NCBI GenBank assembly: GCA_027486415.1
Contig: JAIXPC010000008.1
Coordinates: forward strand, 124,001 to 188,000
Source of the DNA: Sphingomonadales bacterium
Lineage (GTDB): Bacteria > Pseudomonadota > Alphaproteobacteria > Sphingomonadales > Sphingomonadaceae
Reading direction: 5' to 3'
Length of the DNA: 64,000 bases
Shown here: positions 37,340 to 54,369 of the stretch, piece by piece
Layout: every line of letters begins with the position of its first letter
How positions within the stretch are numbered: position 1 is the first letter of the stretch
The notes under the pieces: model-generated
What the model was told of the DNA's origin: nothing
The model's input: only the letters and a program-made list of their open reading frames with translations
Databases searched by the model: none
Made by a program: the position numbers and the translations under genes

Positions 37340-38113
37340 ATGACCTTCTTCTACCTGCTGCTCGCCCTCGGCCTTGCCGTTGGCCTGAACCACCCCGCAA
37401 GGCTGTGGCGCGTGCTGGCGCAGGTGGGTGCGGCGGCGGCGCTCGCCATGATGGCGTGGTCGATCTGGCTTGCCAATGGCGATGGCACGTTCGCGGCCCG
37501 GCCGGCCGATGATGTGCGCCCCCTCCTGCTCAACATAATGGCGGCGATTGCCGGCTTGGTGATCCTGCTGTTGCTGCTGCTGCTGCCGGCGCAGGTGGTG
37601 CGGCAGGTGGAGGCGGTGCCGGACTGGAACCAGCGCAACCGCTGGGGCCAGATTGCCCGCATCCTGCACTGGACGAGTGCGGTGCTGATGCTGGTGGCGC
37701 TGCCGATGGGGCTGTTTGTCGCCGTGTTGAAGCCATCGGTGGAGCGGGCCAGCTTTGCCGACGCACACGTGGGCATCGGCCTCGCACTGATCTTCCTGTT
37801 GTTGCTGCGCCTGTTCGCGCAGGGCGCTTCGCCCGGCCCGGCCAGCCCCAACGGCGCGGCGCGGCTGAACAAGCTGGCGCTCTATCTGGCACTGGCCTGC
37901 CTGCCGGTGTCGGGCCTGGCGCTGGCGGCGGCGAGCGAAACTCTGGTCATGGGCCTGTATCTGCCCGCCGGCGTGCCGCTGGTGCCGGCGCGCCTGTTGC
38001 ACCAGGCGCTTTCCGGCCTGTTCGCGTTGGCCTTTGCGGCCCATGCCGGCGCTGTGGTGTGGCATCATTTCGTGCTGCGCGATCGCCAGCTGGTGCGGCG
38101 GATGTTGCGCTAG
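37340..38113 (+). CDS. Cytochrome b561-type membrane protein
   Basis: A 257-residue polytopic protein. Two N-terminal helices (about residues 3-18 and 29-45) precede a third, then a cytochrome b561/CybB core. The core has His residues in [27 protein letters not shown] and [13 protein letters not shown] positioned to bind two haems. It probably shuttles electrons between the ubiquinone pool and a periplasmic acceptor. An in-frame ATG at 37280 would add 20 polar residues; neither start has a clear ribosome site. It lies 32 bases before uvrB. Confidence 0.78.
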
Positions 38114-38145
38114 AACAAAGCGCGCACGGGGGCCATAGTGGGCCC

Positions 38146-38562
38146 ATGGCCGTCCAGATTCGCACCAACCTTGCCGAAACCGAGCTGGCGCAATTCACGC
38201 CGCACCGGCCGGCGCGCCCGGAAAAGTCGGAAGGTGGCCGCGCCTTCGTGATGAAGACCGAATACACGCCATCTGGTGACCAGCCGGCGGCGATTGCGGA
38301 ACTGGTGGCGCAGGCCGAGGCCGGCGAGCGCGACCAGGTGCTGCTGGGGGTCACCGGTTCGGGCAAGACCTTCACCATGGCCAAGGTGATCGAGGCGGTG
38401 CAGCGCCCAGCGCTGATCCTCGCGCCCAACAAGATCTTGGCCGCGCAATTGTACGGGGAATTCAAGAGCTTCTTCCCCGACAACGCGGTCGAATATTTCG
38501 TGTCCTATTACGACTATTACCAGCCCGAAGCCTATGTGCCGCGGTCCGACTCCTATATCTAG
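38146..38562 (+). CDS. UvrB N-terminal fragment ending at the amber codon
   Basis: If the TAG is real, this 138-residue product contains the Walker A region and part of domain 1a plus the start of the beta-hairpin region ([14 protein letters not shown]). Alone it cannot hydrolyse ATP or bind UvrA and DNA. Reported so the two pieces of the interrupted gene are visible. Confidence 0.4.
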
Positions 38563-38574
38563 AAGGAGTCGAGC

Positions 38575-40350
38575 GTGAACGAGGCCATCGACCGGATGCG
38601 CCATTCGGCCACCCGCGCGCTGCTGGAACGCGATGACGTGATCATCGTCGCGTCCGTCTCGTGCCTTTATGGCATCGGTTCGGTCGAGACCTATTCCGCG
38701 ATGACGTTCAGCCTGAAGAAGGGCGGGACAGCCGACCAGAAGGAGATCGTGCGGAAACTGGTGGCCATGCAGTACAAGCGCGGCGACCTGAGTTTCGCGC
38801 GCGGCAATTTCCGGGTGCGCGGCGACAGCCTGGAGATTTTCCCGTCCCACTATGAGGACAGTGCCTGGCGCATCAGTTTCTTTGGCGACGAAGTGGAGGC
38901 GATCAGCGAGTTTGATCCGCTGACCGGCGAGACGGTGGCCAAGCTGGATGCCATCAAGATCTACGCCAACAGCCATTATGTGACGCCAGGCCCGACGCTG
39001 AAGCAGGCATCGGAAGCCATCCGCCACGAGCTGAACGAGCGGTTGAAGGAGCTGAACGCCGAAGGCAAGTTGCTGGAAGCGCAGCGGCTGGAGCAGCGGA
39101 CGAATTTCGACCTGGAGATGATCGCGGCGACCGGCAGCTGCGCCGGGATCGAGAATTACAGCCGCTTCCTCACCGGTCGCCTGCCCGGTGAGCCGCCGCC
39201 GACCCTGTTTGAATATCTGCCCGAAAACGCCGTGCTGTTCATCGACGAAAGCCATGTGACGGTGCCGCAGATCGGCGCGATGGCCAAGGGCGACCATCGC
39301 CGCAAGGTGACGCTGGCCGAATATGGTTTCCGCCTGCCAAGCTGCATCGACAACCGGCCGCTGCGCTTTTCGGAATGGGATGCGATGCGGCCACAGACAT
39401 TGTTTGTTTCCGCCACGCCCGGCCCGTGGGAGATGGACCGCACCGGCGGCGTGTTCGTGGAGCAGGTCATCCGCCCGACCGGCCTCATTGACCCGCCGGT
39501 GCTGATCCGCCCGGTGGAAGACCAGGTGGAAGACCTGATCCAGGAAGCGAAGAAGACTGCCGCTGCCGGCTATCGCACGCTGGTAACGACGCTGACCAAG
39601 CGCATGGCAGAGGATCTGACCGAGTTCCTGCACGAGGCGGGCTTGCGCGTGCGTTACATGCACAGCGACGTGGAGACGCTGGAGCGCATCGAGCTGATCC
39701 GCGACCTGCGGCTGGGTGTCTATGACGTGCTCGTTGGCATCAACCTGCTGCGCGAAGGCCTCGACATTCCCGAGTGCGGCCTGGTGGCGATCCTGGATGC
39801 GGACAAGGAAGGATTTTTGCGATCGGAAACGTCGCTGATCCAGACCATCGGCCGCGCCGCGCGCAACGTCGAAGGCCGGGTGATCCTCTATGCCGATCGC
39901 ATCACCGGCAGCATGGAACGCGCGATGGCGGAGACCGACCGCCGCCGCGCCAAGCAGCAGGAATACAACGAACTTCACGGCATCACGCCCACCACCATCA
40001 AGCGCAACATCGGCGACGTGCTGGCCGACGTGTCGATGAAGGACGGGCTGGTGGTCGACACCGGTGATGACGAGACGCAGCACCTCGTCGGCCACAATCT
40101 CAAGGCCTATATCGCCGAGTTGGAAGAGCAGATGAAGAAGGCCGCGGCCGATCTGGAGTTCGAGACGGCGGCTGCCATCCGTGACCAGATCCGCCGGCTG
40201 GAAATGGACGAACTGGGCGTGCCGGTGGACGAACGCACCGCCCCGGTGAAGGGCCGCGCGACAGGCGGCGTGGCCGGAACGCGCACCACGCGCTTTTCCA
40301 AGATGCAGAAGAAGGGCTTCAGCGGCAAACGGCGCGGCGCGGGCCGCTGA
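38575..40350 (+). CDS. UvrB downstream fragment with its own possible start
   Basis: A 591-residue frame from GTG 38575 in register with uvrB, covering the rest of the hairpin region, domains 1b, 2 and 3 and the UVR C-terminus. AAGGAG (38563-38568) stands 6 bases before the GTG, giving a good ribosome-binding layout for reinitiation. The same bases encode the family-conserved KE residues, so the resemblance may be a by-product of coding. Walker A would be absent from this piece. Confidence 0.4.
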
Positions 40351-54078: not shown

Positions 54079-54369
54079 TCACCTGATCGCCCCCACCATG
54101 TCGATAAGGCCGCGTTCCAGGAAATCGGCCAGGCCCAGCATCAGGCCTTCGCCGGCAACGCCGGTCACCAGCACCAGCACCGCCAGCTTGGGCAGGAAGG
54201 AAATGCTGCTTTCCTGCACCGAAAAGATCGTCTGGATGAGGCCGACGACAACAGCGACGATCAGCAATGGCACCAGGAACGTCGCTGCGCTGCCGGCAAA
54301 CAGCAGCACCGCCTCGCGCGCCAGATCGCCAAGCATGACATCGTCGGGGGCGGGAGCAAGGCCAGCCAT
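54079..54369 (-). CDS. fliQ: Flagellar biosynthesis protein FliQ
   Basis: A 96-residue protein with two long hydrophobic segments (about residues 22-42 and 57-75). The family motif region is IQTIFSVQESSISFLPKL. It is a small subunit of the FliPQR export gate. The start at 54369 overlaps the fliP stop (TGATG). Confidence 0.93.
   Translation of the reverse strand: MAGLAPAPDDVMLGDLAREAVLLFAGSAATFLVPLLIVAVVVGLIQTIFSVQESSISFLPKLAVLVLVTGVAGEGLMLGLADFLERGLIDMVGAIR

Follow-up and report, generated by a model that had tools for sequence, protein, structure and literature searches.

An in-frame TAG interrupts the only uvrB gene found in a Sphingomonadales assembly

A stop codon inside uvrB, a gene of bacterial nucleotide excision repair, raises the question of whether it is a genuine lesion, a device of the organism or a fault of the assembly. 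Such a stop occurred in the window analysed here (the whole stretch of 64,000 nucleotides), for which the initial annotation had listed four options: nonsense mutation, sequence error, amber readthrough and a two-piece UvrB. The first two survived our analysis, whereas readthrough and the two-piece protein lost support. From sequence comparison we assign a probability of about one half to a nonsense mutation that arose very recently in the sole uvrB found in the genome; a base-call or consensus error is close behind. The locus is organized as follows.

38146..40350, + strand: whole uvrB frame from ATG 38146, with one internal TAG (TIGR00631, 998.2 bits, profile positions 2-657)
38146..38559, + strand: upstream uvrB part, 138 codons, with the GVTGSGKT stretch plus the initial portion of the beta-hairpin (matching solved UvrB residues 5-109; ResIII/DEAD)
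38551..38553, + strand: Ser codon private to this genome; all 100 other covering loci have Thr (locus comparison)
38560..38562, + strand: in-frame TAG (reading frame, profile match, locus comparison)
38563..38577, + strand: AAGGAGTCGAGCGTG, a Shine-Dalgarno-like string plus GTG, sense codons in intact relatives (sequence)
38575..40350, + strand: downstream uvrB part lacking Walker A, 591 aa when started at GTG (residues 116-656 of 9gy7; Pfam)

The TAG at 38560-38562 is read in phase with the start codon ATG 38146 and the terminal stop, which ends at 40350. Profile TIGR00631 was matched straight through it over positions 2-657 of 658 (998.2 bits, cut-off 750.1), so that the whole profile of the UvrB of bacterial nucleotide excision repair (structures 1d9x, 2fdc and 9gy7) is present across the stop. 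Both halves are in register with these solved chains, the upstream part matching residues 5-109 and the downstream part residues 116 onward (116-656 of 9gy7). Unlike in the solved chains, the frame is not continuous here, an internal TAG standing at the equivalent of residue 110. No single uninterrupted frame carried all motifs: the upstream part displayed the GVTGSGKT stretch, which we take to be Walker A, and the downstream part the UvrB interaction domain, Helicase_C, UvrB and UVR motifs (Pfam). Promoter-like or terminator-like sites were not found at 38000-38700. The search for a second uvrB suggested by the initial annotation was carried out with the TIGR00631 profile and found none in the assembly (2.71 Mb, 14 contigs, 97.51% complete, 0.03 contamination); the next-best match reached 52.1 bits, and such matches were short.

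Conservation at the stop column was examined in relatives. The same-genus search comprised 24 genomes, the window's own included, and 20 of the 23 others had a locus covering the codon (G014, G018 and G022 had no coverage). Added to these were the best 80 loci from named genomes, mostly sphingomonads, some possibly of the same species as genomes of the genus set, the two sets not being independent. Altogether 114 loci were examined, 13 of them off-site (helicase side hits and fragments) and one being the window's own, which left 100 others that were informative. All 100 displayed Glu (GAG or GAA) at the stop column, including the 20 same-genus ones; with the frame continuous on both sides, this confirmed the initial description of a uvrB split by an in-frame TAG at a conserved Glu codon. 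That annotation had also set sister genomes with a sense codon against its own reading. The GAG or GAA found in all 20 covering same-genus loci does speak against a lineage-wide device, but leaves a private mutation unaffected. At the level of the family, uvrB was present in 386 of 397 genomes (E <= 1e-150), and among the matches listed in this search the stop occurred only in the window's own genome.

The locus resembles a housekeeping gene of single copy that carries a private nonsense allele or has recently become a pseudogene, with one stop in one genome, the remaining gene conserved, the stop absent from close relatives and no other working copy in the assembly. What sets it apart is another private change, nine bases farther upstream, and a stop that is read from the assembled sequence.

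This second change was characterized in 89 sequences, obtained from 101 with the motif by removing nine without a start motif (before alignment) and three short ones (before the count). Invariant columns amounted to 368 of 696. At columns that were otherwise invariant, the window protein had exactly two states of its own, Ser in place of Thr at column 98 and the stop at column 101 (n = 89); such private changes averaged 0.51 in the 88 other sequences. The chance of one private change within three codons of the stop was about 0.8%, a value calculated post hoc. Thr occupied this position, three codons before the stop, in all 100 other covering loci; since solved UvrB 7egt has Leu there, the Ser change by itself is probably mild. 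The nearest relative was 95.8% identical, and the 54 private bases relative to the nine nearest relatives fell on 40 third, nine first and five second codon positions. The gene shows no decay and, judged from its sequence, was under strong selection until very recently.

Two changes this close together suit a single local event, be it a mutation of several bases or a local error in the sequence. With the private base at 38551, a 7-bp inverted repeat becomes perfect (GACTCCT ... AGGAGTC, 38548-38554 with 38564-38570); it has one mismatch in the nearest relative. A quasipalindrome origin was considered and rejected: in the gene of the nearest relative, 70 of the 6264 possible substitutions would create such a repeat, the observation was made post hoc, and the stop lies outside the repeat. 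A templated origin or gene conversion was likewise rejected, as the 16-base string around the stop occurred only once in the assembly (at most two mismatches).

An error of base calling, polishing or strain mixing, with the organism's uvrB intact, is a reading that we place somewhat below even odds. It would account for the presence of two private changes, separated by nine bases, in a gene otherwise perfectly conserved, and for a stop private to one genome. The assembly moreover has no matched 16S gene and no tRNA-Ile(GAT), as is common in metagenome-derived or short-read assemblies. For these two reasons an rRNA operon may be missing from it; the search that gave no 16S match in this genome also missed the gene in five of 14 control genomes. 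Yet both changes are clean substitutions rather than indels, the 14-contig assembly is compact, with 0.03 contamination, and no other equally supported broken gene was found on the contig that carries uvrB, where three smaller candidates remain.

This last point derives from a scan of the 391-kb contig (contig C8, about 14% of the assembly), in which 282,035 bases lay under matches with 60% identity or more. Of the many stops inside matches, fourteen, uvrB included, had at least half of the 20 residues on either side conserved in at least one match. The uvrB stop was the one supported by seven relatives (flanks 95% and 100% identical in one match), the others being supported by one to three. 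Nine of the other 13 were compared with overlapping ORFs and represented eight places (125348 adjoins 125282). General decay or codon reassignment was rejected, seven of these eight places being interpreted as antisense shadows or as lying ahead of an intact start. Stops 136405 and 249955 displayed no third-position bias and look like shadows. The remaining candidate mid-gene stops are 256416, 219991 and 266306, each supported by one to three relatives. The first of them (+ strand, outside the window) is a TAG that falls in frame within a match to a long ORF of a relative (75.6% identity) and may mark a gene or a shadow frame. Within the window, where relatives' ORFs were matched over 55,591 bases, no other mid-gene stop was as well supported as 38560, and the other stops were attributed to weak matches, to shadow frames or to the vicinity of an ORF end. 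The uvrB lesion looks isolated on the contig and so fits one mutation or one error.

Amber readthrough or suppression, by which full-length UvrB would still be made, is in keeping with a normal protein frame that carries on at either side of a single stop. It was nevertheless judged unlikely, indeed to have very little chance, because no tRNA with a CTA anticodon was present among the 40 found, release factor RF1 was present without stops, and TAG is an ordinary stop, used at the end of 25 of the 254 conserved genes on contig C8. No relative examined displayed a stop at this column, which means that there is no conserved readthrough signal. The initial annotation had asked for a search for an amber-suppressor tRNA; this was run on 40 Rfam tRNA matches, with the anticodon of each taken from ARAGORN, and gave none in a list that is incomplete, as it has no tRNA-Ile(GAT). 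ARAGORN also reported a tRNA with a two-base anticodon at window positions 54240-54331 (- strand), which is probably a false hit since no Rfam tRNA match occurs there.

Directly after the stop, AAGGAG, a six-base spacer and GTG form what had been called a "ready-made" ribosome site. The string does exist, but the label is misleading because the same 15 bases, AAGGAGTCGAGCGTG, are the K-E-S-S-V codons of intact relatives. The exact string was present in eight of 91 other sequences, four of them within the genus and the nearest relative included, which speaks against adaptation; the restart-like string is probably older than the stop. A pattern scan for the site in viral contigs gave 0 matches.

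The string bears directly on a two-piece UvrB, whose halves would be made separately through restart at GTG 38575 and then reassemble. The good spacing of AAGGAG and GTG and the conservation of both halves suit such a protein, which we nonetheless regard as improbable: the string, already present in intact relatives, did not evolve for it, the stop was seen in no relative examined, Walker A would lie on the small piece, and the open-licence papers searched included none on a split uvrB. The break also falls within the DNA clamp described as crucial in PMC7616783. The more specific picture of two UvrB chains meeting in the DNA-clamping hairpin, with a restart signal drawn from the conserved K-E-S-S-V codons, seems more doubtful still; were it true, the stop would have converted one gene, in one step, into a split helicase encoded by two cistrons. 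The string could permit some restart but is not evidence that a second gene has evolved.

The nonsense allele remains our preferred reading. In its favour we counted the single uvrB, the Glu in 100 of 100 other loci, the lack of decay, the isolation of the lesion on the contig, the intact RF1, the ordinary use of TAG as a stop and the lack of a CTA-anticodon tRNA among the 40 found. Against it stand the second private change nine bases upstream, which fits a local sequence error equally well, the otherwise perfect conservation of the gene, from which tolerance of the stop gains no independent support, and the almost constant retention of uvrB in the family (386 of 397 genomes). On this reading the stop base would really be present in the organism, an inference from the assembled sequence. 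No open-licence paper was found on a uvrB nonsense mutation in Sphingomonas, or on Polymorphobacter together with uvrB; the phrase "truncated uvrB" does occur in this literature, once in each of two papers, of which PMC6750098 is one.

A real stop would terminate translation after codon 138, within the DNA-clamping beta-hairpin, and separate the Walker A segment from the remainder. Full-length UvrB would then not be made, which should abolish nucleotide excision repair or leave very little of it. If the older AAGGAG-GTG allowed weak restart, the product could be a piece of 591 aa that lacks Walker A and is presumably inactive. Tyrosines 92, 93, 95 and 96 of the hairpin contact DNA, according to PMC6750098, and in the UvrB studied in PMC7616783 residues 112 and 115 lie at flipped bases and atop the hairpin, whose clamping is described there as crucial to UvrB function. 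A loss of UvrB function is accordingly what the position of the break suggests.

UvrA and UvrC gave full-length matches without stops. The "phototroph" label given to the organism is supported by two reaction-centre-family matches in the genome; these genes, L192 and L193, are adjacent (G000 C14 669246-670907). The loss of UvrB, which the initial annotation expected to matter under light, would be cushioned by photolyase-type genes: three FAD_binding_7 (photolyase/cryptochrome) matches were found, none with a stop and the third partial, and such enzymes could cover light-reversible damage.

Real allele or error alike, the present evidence gives no pointer to a new mechanism. Should the stop be an error, it calls for caution in the annotation of this genome. 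Should it be real, this would be a natural uvrB-null strain, without nucleotide excision repair though carrying photosynthesis genes, and leaning on photolyase-type enzymes.
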